A stretch of DNA of 47,861 bases. It comes from Candidatus Omnitrophota bacterium. Its GTDB lineage: Bacteria; Omnitrophota; Gorgyraeia; Zapsychrales; Fredricksoniimonadaceae. Both the position numbers and the translations under genes were made by a program. The stretch is from positions 1-47,861 of the forward strand of contig JAGWOI010000018.1 of the NCBI GenBank assembly GCA_028870995.1, in the 5' to 3' direction. This document shows, piece after piece, positions 38 to 9,085 of this stretch (within the stretch, counting starts at the first letter, position 1; each line of letters begins with the position of its first letter). The notes beneath the pieces are model-generated. The model saw nothing but the letters and a program-made list of their open reading frames with translations, was not told where the DNA came from and did no database searches.

Positions 38-406
38 ATGCCAAAAACAGAGGCCGCAAACGGTGTGCAAAAGAAGTTCCTGGTATTTTTTATCAGCTTG
101 GTGCTGGTGCTGCTCTTGTTTTCATTCATGCTGGTCCATCCGGCCCATGGACAGGCCGTTCACGAAATAGCTGAAACAGCCGCCTCGGACTCGGCCAGGC
201 TCGGTGCTTTTTGGTCATCGGCGCTAGCCGTAGGTTTAAGTTCCCTGGCCGCTGGTTTTGCTGTGGCTTATGTGGGAGCGGCAGCAGTCGGCGCCATCAG
301 CGAAAAACCGGAAATCGTTGGCCGGGCGCTTATCTTTGTAGGGCTAGCGGAGGGGATAGCAATTTACGGATTGATCATAGCCCTCATCATTTTAAGCCGT
401 ATTTAA
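38..406 (+). CDS. ntpK: V/A-type ATPase proteolipid subunit K (c-ring)
   Basis: This is the membrane rotor subunit that carries ions across the inner membrane in the V/A-type ATPase. The 122-residue protein has an N-terminal hydrophobic segment (about 14-34), probably a signal or leader helix, and then a single helical hairpin: helix 1 about 58-86 and helix 2 about 97-120. The ion-binding carboxylate is Glu105 in GLAEGIAIYG. It has one hairpin, not the duplicated four-helix form of many V-type K subunits. Helix 1 has no Gln, and Glu105 is followed by Gly rather than Ser or Thr, which argues mildly for protons over sodium. A strong AAGGAG precedes the ATG. A TAA at 6-8 may end an upstream gene, plausibly subunit I, but that is outside the window. 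Fourteen bases separate it from subunit F. Confidence 0.93.
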   Translation: MPKTEAANGVQKKFLVFFISLVLVLLLFSFMLVHPAHGQAVHEIAETAASDSARLGAFWSSALAVGLSSLAAGFAVAYVGAAAVGAISEKPEIVGRALIFVGLAEGIAIYGLIIALIILSRI

Positions 407-420
407 CCAAGGGAAGGCTG

Positions 421-726
421 ATGAAAGTCTTTTGTATTGCTGATGAAGATACCGTGACGGGATTCCGGCTGGCCGGTGTGCAGGGGCATGCCGCCACTAC
501 CCCCGGCCAGGCCAGGGATTTGGTTTTATCAGCCGCCGCCAGGCCGGAGGTCGGTCTCATCATCATCAGCGAGAAGACGGCAGGCATGATTCGTCCTGAA
601 ATAGACGCGTTCTTATTAGACCGGGAAGGCCCATTGATCGTTGAGGTTCCGGACGCCCAGGGACCGGCCCATGAAAGAAAAACCGTCGCCGATATTGTCC
701 GTGGGGCTGTGGGGATCAGCCTATGA
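421..726 (+). CDS. V/A-type ATPase subunit F
   Basis: Central-stalk subunit F of the V/A-type ATPase, which binds subunit D and helps regulate catalysis. The 101-residue protein has the expected small Rossmann-like pattern: MKVFCIADEDTVTGFRLAG at the start, LIIISEKTAGMI near residue 50, and PLIVEVPD near 70-80. I chose the ATG at 421 because it matches the family N-terminus and follows a GGGAAGG ribosome site; the reading frame stays open further upstream, but that part has no family character. Its stop overlaps the start of subunit E in an ATGA, so translation is coupled. Confidence 0.88.
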   Translation: MKVFCIADEDTVTGFRLAGVQGHAATTPGQARDLVLSAAARPEVGLIIISEKTAGMIRPEIDAFLLDREGPLIVEVPDAQGPAHERKTVADIVRGAVGISL

Positions 727-1373
727 AGATCCAGCCGATCCCATCAGGGTCCATTGAGGGGCTTTGCACTCAAATAAGCAAGGATGCGCTGGATGATGCC
801 AGGAGAATTTTTGCCCAAGCCCGGGATGAGATACGTAAGATCACTGAGGAAGGCGCCAAAGAGTCTGAGGCGATGTGCCGCCGGATCGAAGAATCAGCAC
901 AGAAAGAGGTAAAATCCTGTAGGCAAAAGATAATGGGAGCAGTAAACCTGGAAGTTCGCCGCACCATCCTGGGGGCCAGGGAAGAGGTTTTTGGCCAAAT
1001 CATGGCCGCCGTCAAGGCAAAGGCCGCTGATTACCGGCGATCCGGGGAATACCCGCAATATTTAAAAACGAAAATTATCGAAGGGCTGCTTGTCCTTCAG
1101 GCGGATTGTGTGGAAATATTGGGCGGCAGCATCGAGAAAAGTATCCTCAATGATGATTTTCTGGCAGGCATCGAGCAAGAGTTCAAAGAAAAGCACGGGC
1201 TTGGCGTGACTTTGGAATTTAAAACCAGGATGGACTGGAATGAAATGGGCTTTATATTGCGCTCCAGGGATGGGCGCCTGCTGTTTGATAATACCTTTTC
1301 GGCGCATTTGGCCAGGCATTACGAAGAAATCCGTTCAACGGTTTTGAAGGAACTTTATGGCAAATCCCTTTAA
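723..1373 (+). CDS. ntpE: V/A-type ATPase subunit E (peripheral stalk)
   Basis: Peripheral-stalk subunit E, which with G/H-type subunits holds the catalytic head still relative to the membrane stator. The 216-residue protein starts with a charged, Ala- and Glu-rich helix (about 15-75) that should form the right-handed coiled coil, followed by a mixed C-terminal domain. Overall sequence similarity in this family is low, so the call rests on length, the helical N-terminus and its place between F and A. The ATG overlaps the end of F, and its own end overlaps the start of subunit A by 17 bases. No separate G/H-type stalk gene is seen in the window. Confidence 0.82.
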   Translation: MKIQPIPSGSIEGLCTQISKDALDDARRIFAQARDEIRKITEEGAKESEAMCRRIEESAQKEVKSCRQKIMGAVNLEVRRTILGAREEVFGQIMAAVKAKAADYRRSGEYPQYLKTKIIEGLLVLQADCVEILGGSIEKSILNDDFLAGIEQEFKEKHGLGVTLEFKTRMDWNEMGFILRSRDGRLLFDNTFSAHLARHYEEIRSTVLKELYGKSL

Positions 1374-3126
1374 GGTCATCGGTTCGGTCGTGCGGGTGGC
1401 AGGACCTTTGGTTGAAGCTGAAGGCGGCCTTCATGCGCATATGCTGGAGATGGTGGAGGTGGGTGATAACCGGGTGGTAGGGGAGATCGTGCGCCTGCAG
1501 GGAAACAGGATAAAAATACAGGTTTATGAAGATACGACTTCATTGAAGCCTGGTGCGCCGGTGTACGGTTCGGGAATGCCGCTGGCTGTCGAGCTGGGGC
1601 CCGGTCTTATCGGTGCTATTTACGACGGGATCCAGCGGCCCTTGGAGGTCATCAGGGCTTCCTCAGGACAATACGTCCAAAAGGGGATCCATGCTCTTGC
1701 CCTTGATAGGAAAAGGAAATGGCGCTTCCAGCCGGTTTTAAAGCCGGGCGCCACGGCAGGCGGCGGCACGATCATCGGCCTGGTCCCGGAGACAGCGCTT
1801 ATCGAGCACCGGGTCCTTGTCCCCCCAGGCGTGCAGGGGAAGGTGAAGGCGATTGCCGCGGAAGGCGATTATACCATCGATGAGGAAGTGGCCGTTATCC
1901 TTGATAATAATGATCAAGAACACACCGTCAGCATGTGTCAACGCTGGCCGGTGCGTCAGGGCCGGCCTTTTCTTGCCAAGCTTCGCCTGTCAGAGCCTTT
2001 GATCACCGGCCAAAGGGTCATTGATACGCTGTTTCCGGTGCCCAAGGGCGGGGCCGTGGCTGTACCCGGCGGGTTCGGCACGGGAAAGACCGTCGTGCAG
2101 CACCAGATCGCCAAGTGGTGCGATGCCCGGATCATCGTGTTTATCGGCTGCGGGGAGCGCGGCAATGAAATGACGGATGTCCTGGTCAATTTTCCCAAGC
2201 TCACTGACCCCCGCAGTCAACGGCCGTTGATGGAAAGGACGATCCTGATCGCCAATACCTCCAATATGCCGGTGGCGGCCAGGGAAGCCAGTATTTATAC
2301 TGGCATTACCATGGCAGAATACTATCGTGACATGGGCTACAGTGTCGCGGTCATGGCCGATTCCACGTCACGCTGGGCCGAAGCGCTGCGCGAGCTTTCT
2401 GGACGTATGGAGGAGTTGCCGGCGGACGAAGGCTTTCCCGCCTATCTTCCCACCCGGCTGGCGGAATTTTATGAGCGGGCAGGGAGCGTCAACACCTTGT
2501 CGGGAAAGCCGGGTTCGATCACCATCATCGGTTCGATCTCTCCTCCGGGAGGGGATTTCTCCGAGCCCGTGACCCAGCATTCCAAACGCTATGTCCGCTG
2601 TTTCTGGTCCCTGGACCGGGACCTGGCCAATGCCCGTCATTATCCGGCCGTCAGCTGGACCGACAGCTATTCCGAGTACCTCAGTGATGTTGCCGTTTGG
2701 TGGGACGGGAATTTCGATCCCCAATGGCTTTCCATGAGAAATAGGATCATCGAACTCCTGCAGCAGGAGGCCCGCTTGCAGCAGGTGGCCAAACTGGTGG
2801 GACCGGACGCCTTGCCGGACGCGCAAAAGATCGTCCTCGAAGCCGCCGCCATATTTAGGAACGGCTTTTTGCAGCAAAGCGCCTTTGATAAGGTCGACAC
2901 CTTTTCCGTGCCGGCCAAACAGATAAAAATGCTCAAGATCATCCTGACGTTCTATGAAAAAAGCCTTGAGGCGGTCAAGGCCGGCGCTTCACTCGCAGAC
3001 GTGCAGAGATCACCGCTGCGTTCTGCGGTTTTGCGGATGAAATCGGCTTGTTCCAACGAAGAGATCGAAAAACTCGACGCCTTATTGAAAGAGGTTGGGA
3101 ATTTTAAGGTGGAGGCCGGGGTCTGA
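1357..3126 (+). CDS. ntpA: V/A-type ATPase catalytic subunit A
   Basis: Catalytic subunit of the V/A-type ATPase head (EC 7.1.2.2 or the sodium-pumping equivalent), which hydrolyses or makes ATP at A/B interfaces. At 589 residues it has the usual family length. The N-terminal beta barrel covers about 1-75 and the bulge domain unique to A subunits about 110-190. The P-loop is GGFGTGKT at about 238-245, with GCGERGNEM holding the catalytic glutamate. MADSTSRWAEALRE and the SGRMEELPADEGFPAYL segment are classic. The P-loop form GGFGTGKT differs a little from the more common GPFGSGKT. The start lies inside subunit E, and the stop overlaps the start of B by one base. Confidence 0.96.
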   Translation: MANPFKVIGSVVRVAGPLVEAEGGLHAHMLEMVEVGDNRVVGEIVRLQGNRIKIQVYEDTTSLKPGAPVYGSGMPLAVELGPGLIGAIYDGIQRPLEVIRASSGQYVQKGIHALALDRKRKWRFQPVLKPGATAGGGTIIGLVPETALIEHRVLVPPGVQGKVKAIAAEGDYTIDEEVAVILDNNDQEHTVSMCQRWPVRQGRPFLAKLRLSEPLITGQRVIDTLFPVPKGGAVAVPGGFGTGKTVVQHQIAKWCDARIIVFIGCGERGNEMTDVLVNFPKLTDPRSQRPLMERTILIANTSNMPVAAREASIYTGITMAEYYRDMGYSVAVMADSTSRWAEALRELSGRMEELPADEGFPAYLPTRLAEFYERAGSVNTLSGKPGSITIIGSISPPGGDFSEPVTQHSKRYVRCFWSLDRDLANARHYPAVSWTDSYSEYLSDVAVWWDGNFDPQWLSMRNRIIELLQQEARLQQVAKLVGPDALPDAQKIVLEAAAIFRNGFLQQSAFDKVDTFSVPAKQIKMLKIILTFYEKSLEAVKAGASLADVQRSPLRSAVLRMKSACSNEEIEKLDALLKEVGNFKVEAGV

Positions 3127-4520
3127 TGGCAGTATCGTCATTGAGTTTCGGGGACCGTGAATATGTCGGCATCCAGGAGGTGCAGGGGCCGCTTTTTGTG
3201 ATTGAAGGCATCCATGATGTCGGCTATAACGAGCTGGTCGAGATCGTCGATGACAGCGGCTTGCGGAAATTGGGCATCACCCTGGAGGTCGCCAAGGGCA
3301 AGGCCGTTGTCCAAGTTTTCGGCACCACCGGCGGGCTTTCCCTGGCCGGCTCACGGGTCAAATTCAAAGGACGGCCTTTTGAATTAGGGGTCGGCTCAGG
3401 CATGCTGGGAAGGATTTTCAACGGCTTGGGAGCGCCTATCGATGAGATGCCGGCGCCGGTGCCGGAAAAAATCTCGGACGTCAACGGACTTCCCATTAAT
3501 CCCACAGCCAGGGACTATCCCCGTAAATTCATCCAGACAGGGATCTCTTCAATAGACATCATGACAACGCTGGTGAGGGGGCAGAAATTGCCCATTTTTT
3601 CGGGCAACGGTCTGCCGCACGATATCCTGTCGGCACAGATCGCCAGGCAGGCCAAAATTATCGGGGAAACGCAGGGTTTCGCCGTGGTCTTCGCGGCCAT
3701 GGGGGTCAAGCACGACGTGGCGCGGTTTTTTATAGATTCTTTTCAGGAAAGCGGTGCCCTCGCGGATGCGGCCGTATTTTTAAGCCTGGCTGATGCGCCT
3801 TCGATCGAGCGGATCATTACACCAAGGGTGGCCTTGACCTGTGCCGAGTTCCTTGCTTTTGAGAAGGGGATGCACATCCTGGTCATCATGACGGACATGG
3901 GCAATTATTGCGAGGCTTTACGCGAGATCTCTACCTTGCGCGGCGAGATTCCGGCCAGAAAAGGTTATCCCGGTTATCTTTATAGCGATCTTTCCAGCCT
4001 GTATGAACGCGCCGGCCTTATCAAAGGCCGCGAAGGTTCGATCACGCAGATGCCGATATTGACCATGCCTAATGATGATATCACCCATCCAGTGCCGGAC
4101 CTGACGGGGTACATCACCGAGGGGCAGGTAGTCCTGGAAAGAGAACTGTCGCAAAAGGGTGTTTATCCGCCGATCGCGGGCCTGCCGTCGTTGTCGCGGC
4201 TCATGAAGGATAATATCGGCAGCGGCCTGACGCGGGACGATCATCCGCACCTGGCCAGCCAGTTGTTTGCCTGTTACGCCCGGGTCAAGGATGTGCGGGC
4301 TTTAAGCCTGGTCATCGGCCGGGAAGAGCTGAGCGCTTTGGACCGTCAATATCTCGAATTCGGAGATGTATTTGAAAAGCAGTTCCTTTCTCAGGGAGAA
4401 CAGGAGGAGCGCAGCCTTGAGCAGAGTTTGGGTTTAGGGTGGAAGATCCTTACGCTGCTGCCCAAGGAAGAGCTCCATAGGATCAGCGCCGATGAAACGG
4501 CCCAATATTACGGTAAATGA
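3126..4520 (+). CDS. ntpB: V/A-type ATPase non-catalytic subunit B
   Basis: Non-catalytic partner of subunit A in the ATPase hexamer; it contributes an arginine side to the nucleotide site. The 464-residue length is normal. As expected for B, the P-loop position reads FSGNGLPHDILSAQIARQ rather than a Walker A motif. ILTMPNDDITHPVPDLTGYITEGQ is the conserved family segment, and PPIAGLPSLSRLMKDNIG follows. Its ATG uses the last base of the A stop codon, and its TGA lies in the ATGA that starts subunit D. These tight overlaps imply equimolar, coupled translation of A, B and D. Confidence 0.96.
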   Translation: MAVSSLSFGDREYVGIQEVQGPLFVIEGIHDVGYNELVEIVDDSGLRKLGITLEVAKGKAVVQVFGTTGGLSLAGSRVKFKGRPFELGVGSGMLGRIFNGLGAPIDEMPAPVPEKISDVNGLPINPTARDYPRKFIQTGISSIDIMTTLVRGQKLPIFSGNGLPHDILSAQIARQAKIIGETQGFAVVFAAMGVKHDVARFFIDSFQESGALADAAVFLSLADAPSIERIITPRVALTCAEFLAFEKGMHILVIMTDMGNYCEALREISTLRGEIPARKGYPGYLYSDLSSLYERAGLIKGREGSITQMPILTMPNDDITHPVPDLTGYITEGQVVLERELSQKGVYPPIAGLPSLSRLMKDNIGSGLTRDDHPHLASQLFACYARVKDVRALSLVIGREELSALDRQYLEFGDVFEKQFLSQGEQEERSLEQSLGLGWKILTLLPKEELHRISADETAQYYGK

Positions 4521-5146
4521 CCATGGCACGATACAAGGTGGCCCCCACCAAAACAAATCTTTTCACGTTGAGACGCGAAGAACAATTCGCCAGGGAGGGT
4601 CACCGTTTCCTGGAGGAAAAGAGGGACGTCCTGATGTTGGAATTGATGACGGCTGCGGTCAAGACCGGGGATATGCAGAAAAAAGTAGATGATGCGCTCA
4701 AGGAGGCTTTTGGCGCGCTTGAGCAGGCCATGGTCAGGATGGGGCGCGGCGGGGTCAAGGCTGCAGCCTTGGCTGTGGATGCAGATGGGGATATAAATAT
4801 CCGGATGAGGCAGGTCATGGGCACGCGTGTGCCGCTCATCGAGATGAGGACCGGGGAACTTAAACCCTGCTACAGCCTCATGGATACCAGCATCACGCTT
4901 GATGATGCCGCCGTGCGTTTCAGGAAGGTCTTAGGATTGACTGTTCAACTGGCCCAGCTGCGTACCGGCGTCTTGCGGCTTTCAGCGGCGGTGCGCAAGA
5001 CCACCCGGAGGGTGAATGCCCTGGAAAAGATCCATCTGCCTGATTACCAAGAGACCATCAAATACATCAACGATATTCTGGAAAACCAGGGCCGTGAAGG
5101 TTTCTTTATTTTAAAATTACTTAAATCGCGCCTGATGGAGCGATAA
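4517..5146 (+). CDS. ntpD: V/A-type ATPase central-stalk subunit D
   Basis: Central rotor shaft subunit D, the functional counterpart of F-type gamma. The 209-residue protein is mostly helical. It has the family N-terminus ARYKVAPTKTNLF, where most homologues keep a P(T/S)K..L signature, and a C-terminal helix with RVNALEKIHLPDYQETIKYI that returns along the shaft. The start could be the ATG at 4517, which overlaps the B stop, or the in-frame ATG at 4523; the second gives the more typical MARYKV start. It is the last ATPase gene here, and a new promoter follows at once. No subunit C gene lies between E and A or after D. Confidence 0.92.
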   Translation: MTMARYKVAPTKTNLFTLRREEQFAREGHRFLEEKRDVLMLELMTAAVKTGDMQKKVDDALKEAFGALEQAMVRMGRGGVKAAALAVDADGDINIRMRQVMGTRVPLIEMRTGELKPCYSLMDTSITLDDAAVRFRKVLGLTVQLAQLRTGVLRLSAAVRKTTRRVNALEKIHLPDYQETIKYINDILENQGREGFFILKLLKSRLMER

Positions 5147-5768: not shown

Positions 5769-7610
5769 ATGAGATATATGTGTAACTTTATCCTGATAGT
5801 AACTTTTTTTACCTCGACGTTGACCTTCGCGCAGGACGATAAGATCCCGCCTGCCGTTCCTCCTCAAAAAGCCATCCCCGCTCCAGTGCCGTCTTCTCCG
5901 GCACCGACCCCAGCGGTCAGGCCATCGATTACAGTCCCAAAGCCGGAGCCTCAAGCCGCACCGGCTGCCGCTGTTGCCGCCAAAGAAAATGCCGCGAAGA
6001 GTCCTGCTTCCGGCAGTGCCGTCTCAACAATGGAGGCTGGACTGGCCGCCTCCGTCCTTCCGCGCAGTGCCGCTCAAGCGCCGGGGTTGAACCTGCCCAG
6101 GGTCTACATTCCCAAGGATGCCTATCAGATAGGCATTGACGACGTTCTTGCGATCAGCGTCATCAAACCTATTCCATTCATCACCAGGGAAATTGTGACC
6201 TCCGACGGCAATATAACCTTTCCCTATATAGGGGCCGTGCGGGCCAAAGGGCGTACGCTCGCGGATATCCAATCGGAAATCCAGGAGCGGCTTTCATCCT
6301 ATATGGATTATCCGGTGGTGTCCGTGTCCTTGCTGGAAGCGCGCAGTAAGAAATTCACCATTTATGGCCAGGTTATCCGCCCCGGCGCCTATCCGGTGGA
6401 AGCCAATATGTCGCTATTGCGTGCCATCAGCCTGGCCGGCGGTTTAAGCGTCCCGGGTTCAACCTGCATGGTCAAGGTGTTGCGCACGCAGAAAGACGGT
6501 AAAAGCAAATCCCTTATTTTCCAATCCGAGATCACGGCCGTACTCAATGGTTCTAAACAAGACGTGGTCATTTTACCCGGTGATACGGTGGTCGTGACCA
6601 TAGATAAATTTTTTATTTATGGCGAAGTCAACAAGCCGGGCAGCTACTACCTGGAAGAGAACATGTCCTTGCTTGACGCCATCACCATGGCCGGGAGCTT
6701 CATCGAGCGCGGTTCCACGGGGGTGGTCAGGCTTTCAAGGGCCAAAGGCGGCGAGATCACCCTGGACATCAAGGATATTTTGGGCGGCAAGGACCGCGGG
6801 GTGACCATCCAGGCCGGAGACACCATCAATGTTACGGTGGATAAGTTTTATATCTACGGGCAGATCGCCCGGCCCGGGGCTTATCCGGTTCGCAACAACA
6901 TGAGCATCATGTATGCTATCACGGCCGCTGGAGGGCTCATCCAGTCAGGTTCCATGGGCCGGATCAAGCTTTTCCGTGCCAAGCCGGAAGCCGGGGAGGG
7001 GCCGGTCTTCGAATCCGATATTAAATCGATTTTGAGCGGTGACAACCAAAACGTCAGGGTAAGGGCAGGCGATACGATCGTCGTCTCCCTGGATAAGTTC
7101 TTCGTGACAGGGCAGGTCAATCACCCGGGTGCTTATCCGGTGGAAGAACATATGTCCTTGATCAATGCCATCACTACGGCCGGCGGCCTGGCAGCCTCAA
7201 GCACCAGCGGGAAGATAAAGCTGCTTCGCTCCGGAGGGGCAGGCGGGAAGCAGGAGGCGTTTGAGACGGATTTTAGTTCTGTCTTAAGCGGCAATGTGCC
7301 CGACATCACCATCCGTCCTTTGGATACCATTGTGGTTACCGCCGATAATTTTTATGTTTATGGGGAAGTCAACCGGCCGGGAATGTATCCGCTGGGGTCT
7401 AAAACCACAGCCTTGGCCGCCATTTCCATGGCCGGCGGTTTCACCAGGTTCGGTTCTGCCGGCAAGGTCAAGATCCTGAGGATGAATGACAAAACAGGGG
7501 CCTATGGTGTCATCAGGGTCAATATCAAGGCAGTCACCGCCGGCAATTCCAAGGTCGATGTCCCGCTGTTGCCCGGCGATGTGGTGGTTGTTTCAGAGGG
7601 GGTATTTTAG
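5769..7610 (+). CDS. SLBB-repeat polysaccharide export protein
   Basis: An outer-membrane or periplasmic Wza-like export protein. After a signal peptide (1-21) comes a long Pro/Ala linker (about 24-95). A Poly_export domain then begins near YQIGIDDVLAISV (about 118-195). Five SLBB repeats follow, starting near residues 197, 280, 359, 444 and 527; each reads like YGQVIRPGAYPV followed by MSLLRAISLAGG. The spacing of about 80-85 residues is regular. Typical Wza-type proteins have two SLBB copies and about 380 residues, so 613 residues with five is expanded. No lipobox is present. A good AAGGAG precedes the ATG. No glycosyltransferase or Wzc kinase gene is adjacent, so the exported substrate cannot be inferred. 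Confidence 0.88.
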   Translation: MRYMCNFILIVTFFTSTLTFAQDDKIPPAVPPQKAIPAPVPSSPAPTPAVRPSITVPKPEPQAAPAAAVAAKENAAKSPASGSAVSTMEAGLAASVLPRSAAQAPGLNLPRVYIPKDAYQIGIDDVLAISVIKPIPFITREIVTSDGNITFPYIGAVRAKGRTLADIQSEIQERLSSYMDYPVVSVSLLEARSKKFTIYGQVIRPGAYPVEANMSLLRAISLAGGLSVPGSTCMVKVLRTQKDGKSKSLIFQSEITAVLNGSKQDVVILPGDTVVVTIDKFFIYGEVNKPGSYYLEENMSLLDAITMAGSFIERGSTGVVRLSRAKGGEITLDIKDILGGKDRGVTIQAGDTINVTVDKFYIYGQIARPGAYPVRNNMSIMYAITAAGGLIQSGSMGRIKLFRAKPEAGEGPVFESDIKSILSGDNQNVRVRAGDTIVVSLDKFFVTGQVNHPGAYPVEEHMSLINAITTAGGLAASSTSGKIKLLRSGGAGGKQEAFETDFSSVLSGNVPDITIRPLDTIVVTADNFYVYGEVNRPGMYPLGSKTTALAAISMAGGFTRFGSAGKVKILRMNDKTGAYGVIRVNIKAVTAGNSKVDVPLLPGDVVVVSEGVF

Positions 7611-7613
7611 GGG

Positions 7614-7679
7614 ATGAAAAAGTTTTTCGTGATAGTCCTGCTGATATCCGTGGCCGGCTGCGCCACGGATATCAGGTAG
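7614..7679 (+). CDS. Possible 21-residue lipoprotein remnant or mini-lipoprotein
   Basis: Three bases after the SLBB gene, an ATG preceded by a run of G opens a 21-codon frame. It encodes MKKFFVIVLLISVAGCATDIR, a perfect lipoprotein signal peptide with lipobox VAGC and only five residues after the modified Cys16. Downstream periplasmic genes of this kind often start this way, so it may be the 5' stump of a lost lipoprotein gene. It could also be a real entericidin-like micro-lipoprotein. Its last 13 codons form a 14-base-pair hairpin that acts as a terminator candidate. Without comparative data I cannot choose between these. Confidence 0.35.
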   Translation: MKKFFVIVLLISVAGCATDIR

Positions 7680-7684: not shown

Positions 7685-7767
7685 GGCACCGCCGGGCCCT
7701 CCGACCACCAGTATTAATTCTTCCCAATCCCGCCTTCTCATTCCGATTAAATCGGTGCAGAATAGGA

Positions 7768-7794
7768 TTGACAAAGGATGTTTTGTGTTATATT
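7768..7794 (+). promoter_or_regulatory. Promoter of the structured leader
   Basis: A consensus TTGACA at 7768-7773 stands 15 bases before TATATT at 7789-7794. TG at 7786-7787 makes an extended -10, which can offset the short spacer. Transcription would start near 7801, at the 18-base palindrome. A separate CCGAT-TAA-ATCGG palindrome lies just upstream at 7743-7755 and may bind a regulator. Confidence 0.55.
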
Positions 7795-7799
7795 GTAAA

Positions 7800-7817
7800 A
7801 GTAAGCATATGCTTACT
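7800..7817. repeat. Perfect 18-base palindrome at predicted transcript start
   Basis: AGTAAGCATATGCTTACT is a perfect palindrome placed directly after the -10 element. It could be an operator for a dimeric repressor, or it could form a short 5' hairpin in the RNA. Confidence 0.6.
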
Positions 7818-7917
7818 AGCTGGGGCTCATGACCCTCGGCGCCTAGTTTAAACTCAGGCCTTCTCCTCCTGGGCTTTAAGCCTTCCCTTCCGGGGAAGGG
7901 GCGCCGGGGGTTTTTTT
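7800..7917 (+). ncRNA. Structured leader or small RNA with intrinsic terminator
   Basis: About 118 bases of predicted RNA between the promoter and the kinase-like gene hold several pairings. GGG and CCC (7822-7835) can form a 5' hairpin, and GCCTAGT can pair with ACTCAGGC near 7841-7859. CCCTTC-CGGG-GAAGGG (7885-7900) is a tight hairpin. CCCTCGGCGCC (7833-7843) can pair fully, allowing one G-U, with GGCGCCGGGGG (7900-7910), which runs straight into seven T. The first and last pairings share bases 7833-7835, as in an antiterminator/terminator switch. A CTTCTCCTCC stretch (7860-7869) resembles an anti-Shine-Dalgarno loop. The element ends ten bases before the next ATG. It may be an attenuator or a free small RNA; it matches no riboswitch class I know. 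Confidence 0.45.
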
Positions 7918-7926
7918 GAAAGGGAT

Positions 7927-8607
7927 ATGGTGGACCAATACCAACAAGAGAGGCGTTGGGAAAGGCCTTTTGTAACGGTTTCTTATGAATTGGGGGCCTG
8001 TGCCAAAAGCATTTTGACAAGCCTTCAGGAATATTTAACCAGGAAGGAAAGGCGCAGGACAGGCATTTGGCAGCTCTTTGACGGCAATCTGCTCGAAGAA
8101 GTGATCAATGACCATCAGCTTTCATCGGATGTTCTGCCTTATCTGGGCACGGCGGCCTCTGAGCTGGAAGACATCATTGAAGAAGTCATCGGCCTGCATC
8201 CTTCCCGTCACGTGCTGGTCCATAAGATGAACAAGACCATCCTGCGCTTGTCCCAACGAGGTTACGTGATCCTGGTGGGCAGGGGGGCCAACGTGGTTAC
8301 CGGCCAAATGCCCCGCGGTGTCCATGTGCGGTTGATCGGCTCCGTCGACAGGAGAGTGCGCTACCTCATGGAATATTATAAAATAGGGGAAGGTCAGGCT
8401 AAACAGTATATTATCCGGGAAGGCCGTAAACGCAGGGAGTATTACCGCAAGTATTTTCATCAAGATATCAATGACCCCCGGCTTTATGATTTGATCATCA
8501 ATACCGACAAGCTTTCCGTCCAGGACATTATCGGTATGATAGGAGCTTTAGTATTTAATGCAAAAAGCAATTCTTTACACCATCGGACATTCGACCCAGC
8601 CGCTTGA
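7927..8607 (+). CDS. Cytidylate-kinase-like protein
   Basis: A 226-residue member of the cytidylate-kinase-like family (PF13189 type), P-loop kinase-fold proteins of unclear substrate. Recognisable parts are the N-terminal beta strand FVTVSYELG (about 15-23), ILVGRGANVVTGQMP (about 115-129), VHVRLIGSVDRRVRYLM, and the lid-like arginine-rich RKRREYYRKYF. Family members usually carry SREYGSGG at the N-terminal loop; here it reads SYELGACAKS, so phosphate binding is doubtful and the protein may be regulatory. AAAGGG precedes the ATG, directly after the T-run of the leader. Its 3' end overlaps the DUF488 gene by 50 bases in another frame, so the C-terminal 17 residues may be poorly conserved. Confidence 0.72.
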   Translation: MVDQYQQERRWERPFVTVSYELGACAKSILTSLQEYLTRKERRRTGIWQLFDGNLLEEVINDHQLSSDVLPYLGTAASELEDIIEEVIGLHPSRHVLVHKMNKTILRLSQRGYVILVGRGANVVTGQMPRGVHVRLIGSVDRRVRYLMEYYKIGEGQAKQYIIREGRKRREYYRKYFHQDINDPRLYDLIINTDKLSVQDIIGMIGALVFNAKSNSLHHRTFDPAA

Positions 8608-9085
8608 AGAATTAATTGAAACGCTTAGGGGCTTCCATGTGGCCAAGCTTATTGACGTGCGGACCCTGCCGAAGTCCAGGTTCAATCCGCAGTTCAATAT
8701 CGAAAACCTTTCACAAAAGCTTCCTGCCCAGGGCATTTTGTATGAACATATGCGCGGCTTGGGAGGCTTAAGGCCGCCTAAAAACGACTCCGTTAACCTG
8801 GGGTGGCGCAACGCCTCCTTCAGGGGCTACGCGGATTATATGCAAACCCAGGAGTTCGAGGATAACCTGCAAGAACTGATCAAGCAGGCCCGTGAGCAAG
8901 TGGTGGCCATCATGTGCGCGGAAGCCGTCCCCTGGCGCTGCCACCGTTCCCTGATCGCCGATGCTTTGCTGGTGCATGGTTTCGAGGCCGTGGACATCAT
9001 GAGCCGGGGCAAGTCAAATCCCCATAAGATCAATCCCATGGCCAAAATTTCCGGCAAGAAATTGCATTACCCTCCGCAATCCTAA
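8558..9085 (+). CDS. DUF488 family protein
   Basis: A 175-residue DUF488 protein, a widespread family without an assigned reaction. Family hallmarks are clear: the N-terminal LYTIGHSTQPLEELI, IDVRTLPKSRFNPQFN (about 32-47), the YEHMRGLGGLR stretch, and the C-terminal MCAEAVPWRCHRSLIADAL, whose Cys, Arg and CHR are usually conserved. I chose the ATG at 8558 because it begins the IYTIGHS motif and has TAGGAG about a dozen bases upstream. Expression is probably linked to the overlapping kinase-like gene. No membrane segment or signal peptide is seen, so it should be cytoplasmic. Confidence 0.88.
   Translation: MQKAILYTIGHSTQPLEELIETLRGFHVAKLIDVRTLPKSRFNPQFNIENLSQKLPAQGILYEHMRGLGGLRPPKNDSVNLGWRNASFRGYADYMQTQEFEDNLQELIKQAREQVVAIMCAEAVPWRCHRSLIADALLVHGFEAVDIMSRGKSNPHKINPMAKISGKKLHYPPQS

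Follow-up and report, generated by a model that had tools for sequence, protein, structure and literature searches.

A conserved three-way-junction RNA next to a putative TetR operator in the leader of a cytidylate-kinase-like gene of Omnitrophota

The locus and its predicted transcription unit

The window, a 47.9-kb stretch of an Omnitrophota metagenome-assembled genome (G000), carries a gene for a Cytidylate_kin2-like protein of 226 aa (PF13189; 7927-8607), the end of which is overlapped by the gene for a DUF488 protein (8558-9085); these genes and the promoter and RNA features of this region lie on the forward strand. Further upstream, an ATP synthase-like operon that reads as V/A-type (38-5146) is followed by a gene for an SLBB-domain polysaccharide export protein (5769-7610) and by a lipoprotein-like ORF of 21 codons (7614-7679; MKKFFVIVLLISVAGCATDIR), whose second half provides the stem of a terminator-like hairpin at 7641-7675. 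Because this terminator-like site belongs to the preceding operon, the element described here appears as a separate transcription unit, and the region looks like the independent start of one. A sigma-70-type promoter was located at 7768-7796, with TTGACA at 7768-7773 and the TG-extended -10 box of the original prediction, TGTTATATT, at 7786-7794; an alternative -10 box, TATTGT at 7791-7796, gives a spacer of 17. Both TTGACA and TATATT are kept in G006, a second species of the same genus, and similar promoters precede the TetR orthologs discussed below. Downstream of the promoter, an 18-bp perfect palindrome (AGTAAGCATATGCTTACT, 7800-7817) overlaps the predicted transcription start, as had been noted from the sequence, and is followed by a three-way-junction RNA at 7833-7910 and a run of seven T at 7911-7917, nine bases before the kinase ATG at 7927. 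All features of the original prediction are present where it had placed them.

The order of operator-like palindrome, RNA element, kinase-like gene and DUF488 gene is common to G006 and the genome of the window, and the genes farther upstream differ. The Pfam match of the kinase-like protein begins at profile position 26, leaving the P-loop part of the profile unmatched, and the protein has SYELGACAKSI where a P-loop is usual (SYELGARAKSV in the G006 ortholog, which is 57% identical); on these two grounds, kinase activity is doubtful. The loci surrounding other Cytidylate_kin2 paralogs are without the three-way-junction element, and a literature search for Omnitrophota riboswitches or Cytidylate_kin2 under those names returned no paper.

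Fold and conservation of the three-way junction

The junction, as delineated from its fold, pairing counts and recurrences, is closed by P1 (7833-7843 with 7900-7910; 11 pairs) and contains two hairpins, P2 at 7847-7879 (TTTAAACTCAGG-CCTTCTCCT-CCTGGGCTTTAA) and P3 at 7882-7898 (7882-7888 with 7892-7898). The P2 loop, CCTTCTCCT at 7859-7867, is anti-Shine-Dalgarno-like; the stretch CTTCTCCTCC that had been assigned to a loop is indeed looped there, except for its last two C, which lie in the stem. The region 7801-7926 folds at -57.3 kcal/mol (z = -3.07; 1 of 200 shuffles was equally stable), with -48.9 kcal/mol for the junction alone. GC-rich P1 runs straight into the seven T, giving the element the layout of an intrinsic terminator, in agreement with the original description of this stem. 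A possible competitor hairpin against the 5' strand of P1 (7819-7840; -10.5 kcal/mol) was found in the window sequence only and has no counterpart in the G006 leader. It corresponds to the mutually exclusive pairing initially proposed (7822-7835 versus 7833-7843/7900-7910), and a switch between the two was discarded because the 5' pairing is not conserved. Among the copies, no conserved antiterminator or alternative pairing of the kind expected for a riboswitch expression platform was found.

The nearest relative with the element is isolate REEB160. In the leader of G006, the element lies directly before the kinase ortholog with 82% identity over 7833-7915, and all 33 bases of P2 are identical, whereas DNA identity between the kinase genes is 69% and their longest identical run is 11 bases; such conservation before the same gene makes chance unlikely. 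All 29 pairs form in both sequences, two of them changed on both sides, including a compensatory C-G/U-A change in P3, and three on one side; a shuffle control with only these two sequences was uninformative (121/500). BLAST among the relatives yielded no DNA homologue except that of G006, the other short matches being attributable to chance on inspection. A covariance model, R1, built from the two leaders matched a copy in another genus, G019 (G019:C58:801-889; E 1.9e-10), and a second copy in G006 (G006:C55:18014-18095; E 6.7e-6); the E-values of such home-made models are rough. Across the four copies, pairing holds in 93.1% of pair cells, and both sides have changed in 9 of the 29 pairs, compared with at most 58.6% pairing and at most two both-side changes in a partner-slid control; none of 500 shuffles matched these values, which are somewhat favoured by an alignment fitted to the structure. 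The sequence of P1 varies freely, while the UUUAA/UUAAA base of P2 (its UUUAA stem is invariant in 4/4 copies), the AGG/CCU region at the P2 tip and CUUC/GAAG of P3 are nearly fixed, as would be expected for a recognised RNA fold. U-rich tails follow the other three copies as well. The loop motif UUCUCCU is retained in three copies (window, G006 kinase leader and G019), and the G006:C55 copy carries a different loop, UUUCCGCU.

The genes that follow the element are of three types, namely kinase, ClC and glucodextranase-like. The G006:C55 copy lies between a TetR gene and a ClC gene that starts about 36 bases downstream (locus L040: TetR gene 901-1494, element 1501-1582); at the same TetR-ClC junction in G000, neither the element nor a terminator was found. 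The G019 copy precedes a glycoside hydrolase (glucodextranase-like) gene, and both it and the G006:C55 copy lie directly 3' of a gene. The structured, intrinsic-terminator-like element predicted before the kinase gene is borne out by pairings conserved in homologues; the covariance search suggested with that prediction added two further copies, and the element does recur before other genes.

The known copies number four, in three incomplete metagenome genomes. Covariance searches of 384 class genomes (11 candidates scored per genome) and 32 family genomes gave no further convincing member. Class matches with E above 1e-5 (G366, G086, G395 and G055) proved to be coding sequence or plain hairpins, and weaker family matches (E 0.01-0.84) were taken as noise as a group rather than inspected one by one. 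When a 21-base hairpin pattern was run with two mismatches against the 384 class genomes, the extra hits in G232 and G290 were coding and did not adopt the fold. Exact-pattern scans returned only the same-genus REEB160 among approximately 85,000 species genomes and nothing in viral contigs. None of 4227 Rfam families reached its gathering threshold in the window; with permissive filters to E = 5, the best match at 7780-7940 scored 14.1 bits against a gathering threshold of 49.5, and nhaA-I, nhaA-II, Na+-I and DUF1646 gave no match in this region. Genuine nhaA-I copies reach 49-50 bits in scans of this type. The element thus matches no known riboswitch class in Rfam, as had been supposed. Judged from these sequence comparisons, the three-way junction is a real, small and new conserved RNA family, without an Rfam entry and from a phylum whose gene regulation has scarcely been studied.

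The palindrome as a putative TetR operator

The original prediction had treated the palindrome as part of an RNA device. Its sequence is better explained as a DNA operator of the TetR/FadR type, and the reading as an RNA hairpin was set aside. The predicted operator core, 7801-7816, follows the consensus GTAASCAnnTGSTTAC and scores 21.9 bits, the best value in the window, with a matrix derived exclusively from the promoters of TetR and ClC-TetR; the random maximum was 16.5 bits over 1.9 million positions. Matching operator-like sites precede the FadR-like TetR gene in three relatives (G006, G007 and G020). In G006, the kinase leader has two copies of the palindrome and the TetR promoter has one, right after its -10 box; the second RNA copy lies downstream of this same TetR gene. 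The orthologs in G007 and G020 (two copies) have the site GTRAGCACTTGCTTAC at the equivalent place, and the G024 ortholog has a diverged palindrome. In the genome of the window, the TetR ortholog (G000:C33:2429-3007, 77% identical to that of G006) belongs to a ClC-TetR-ClC operon whose promoter is followed by GTAACCAAGCGCTTAC. The palindrome at 7800-7817 is therefore best read as the putative operator of a FadR-like TetR repressor.

Two observations concern the sites themselves. The doubled operator in the G006 kinase leader (L002 near 1420-1500, reverse strand) consists of GTAAGCATTTGTTTAC and GTAAGCAAATGGTTAC, 5 bases apart, and the two copies could pair with each other as RNA. The ClC-TetR-ClC operon of G000:C33 (L105:519-534 onward) lies behind two tRNA genes, with the operator-like palindrome after its promoter.

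The regulator combines TetR_N (PF00440) with TetR_C_4, YsiA-like (PF08359), and its best solved-structure match is 3whb, a fatty acid metabolism regulator (E 1.5e-14). It resembles FadR/YsiA-type repressors in these domains, in a palindrome at the start site and in an autoregulation layout, but differs in an NCBIfam FadR score of 84.7, below the cut-off of 200, and in a regulon that here comprises ClC, kinase and trehalose-phosphate-synthase-like genes; the operator GTAASCAnnTGSTTAC presumably also differs from the Bacillus FadR site. Since the RNA is tied to a defined repressor, operator and regulon, its ligand and mode of action become testable on concrete genes.

The regulon also includes an RNA of known class. 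An operator-like site at G000:C39:172704 (19.7 bits) precedes an nhaA-I RNA and a trehalose-phosphate-synthase-like gene; the nhaA-I match (RF03057; L042:1502-1612, G000:C39 about 172705-172815) scores 49.0 bits, above gathering. In G020, an nhaA-I RNA lies just 3' of each of two FadR-like TetR genes (L094:2098-2151 and L108:1015-1067), again above gathering. The two RNAs are therefore found in the same two settings, namely leaders under repressor control and the stretch that separates TetR from its downstream neighbour. By analogy, this parallel gives the strongest indication that the element of the window may be cis-regulatory. nhaA-I RNAs are Li+-I riboswitches, of which terminator-type variants sense Na+ (Na+-II), and Li+-I riboswitches are associated with trehalose-phosphate synthase (PMC9646797). 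The element of the window resembles nhaA-I (Li+-I / Na+-II, RF03057) as a structured leader at the same two positions of the same TetR-operator regulon but differs in fold and sequence, in that its three-way junction is itself the terminator stem and lacks an RF03057 match.

Possible modes of action

From the promoter, operator match, conserved structure, terminator layout and recurrence before other genes computed here, we infer TetR binding, a regulated termination event, a ligand and a cis function; together these describe a cis-acting, riboswitch-like terminator leader under TetR repression, the likeliest reading, for which belief and doubt are nevertheless evenly balanced because no conserved antiterminator was found. 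A FadR-like TetR repressor would bind 7800-7817 and block initiation at the start site until a ligand, possibly acyl-CoA as in FadR, released it. The transcript would then open with the three-way junction, in which P1 and the following U7 would act as an intrinsic terminator just before the kinase ribosome-binding site, so that expression of the kinase-like and DUF488 genes would need read-through of the element, and the gene would be turned on by a signal that destabilises P1 or keeps it from forming. An ionic or osmotic signal is no more than a guess, prompted by the ClC channels in the regulon and by nhaA-I before the trehalose-phosphate-synthase-like gene. The positions of the element before the kinase-like gene and before the G006 ClC gene imply that both genes are read through it or have an unseen promoter. 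Given the stability of the junction, P1 may alternatively be a constitutive terminator. In G019, the copy is followed by a promoter-like site near the next gene, so that the element there could simply end the upstream gene.

Such a leader would share with terminator-type riboswitches a promoter, a structured RNA and a GC stem with a U-run just before the start codon, but would differ in using a single closing stem for both the aptamer-like junction and the terminator, with no conserved antiterminator found. The further step, to a new riboswitch class so far confined to one Omnitrophota family, with a three-way-junction aptamer doubling as terminator stem and gating an ion- or osmotic-stress regulon of ClC channels and the cytidylate-kinase-like gene together with the FadR-like repressor in parallel to nhaA-I, is unlikely on present evidence. 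If the element were a riboswitch, it would represent a compact class with aptamer and terminator in a single stem, and it might place the degenerate cytidylate-kinase-like family in a physiological context for the first time. It is very improbable that the element is instead a member of a known riboswitch or attenuator class, for example a relative of alkali-cation aptamers (nhaA-I, Na+-I), that has diverged beyond the reach of Rfam thresholds: nhaA-I RNAs do occupy equivalent positions in the same regulon, but the scan to E = 5 gives no nhaA-I, nhaA-II or DUF1646 match here, and scans of this type detect true nhaA-I.

Apart from the cis-acting leader, the element might be an independent small RNA, about 115 nt long, that starts at 7801-7803, ends at the T-run and is controlled by TetR. 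Its C/U-rich P2 loop (CCUUCUCCU) would base-pair with the Shine-Dalgarno regions of other transcripts, and the kinase gene would be read through or adjacent by chance. Small RNAs with C-rich anti-Shine-Dalgarno loops include the CcsR or 'cuckoo' RNAs, FsrA and RsaE, and the element resembles them in its pyrimidine-rich hairpin loop, its own strong promoter and its intrinsic terminator. The persistence of UUCUCCU in three copies while P1 drifts would suit such a role, and the two copies directly 3' of a gene recall 3'-UTR-derived small RNAs; the weak sub-threshold Rfam similarities, at chance level, are also mostly to small RNAs, including CcsR1 (11.9 bits against a gathering threshold of 65.3) with its CCUCCUCCC motif. 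A small RNA would not, however, need the invariant UUUAA/UUAAA stem. The loop differs in the G006:C55 copy, and both species keep the element immediately in front of their kinase gene, at a distance of nine bases from the ATG in the window. In contrast to those small RNAs, the loop here is part of a three-way junction, which occupies a fixed position in front of a single gene in two species. We regard this explanation, the chief alternative, as possible, if on the unlikely side.

It is quite unlikely that the element is an unregulated compound intrinsic terminator, serving as an insulator or 3'-end element and owing its conserved sequence to recent shared ancestry or to copying. In favour of this reading, all four copies end with a GC stem and a U-run, two of them lie just after a gene end, and the fold is very stable. 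Against it, P2 is identical over 33 bases between species whose kinase genes are 69% identical, and UUUAA is invariant in all four copies beside a variable P1. A terminator that separates a promoter from the sole gene which this promoter can serve also makes little sense, except where termination is regulated or where a small RNA is what the promoter is there to make.
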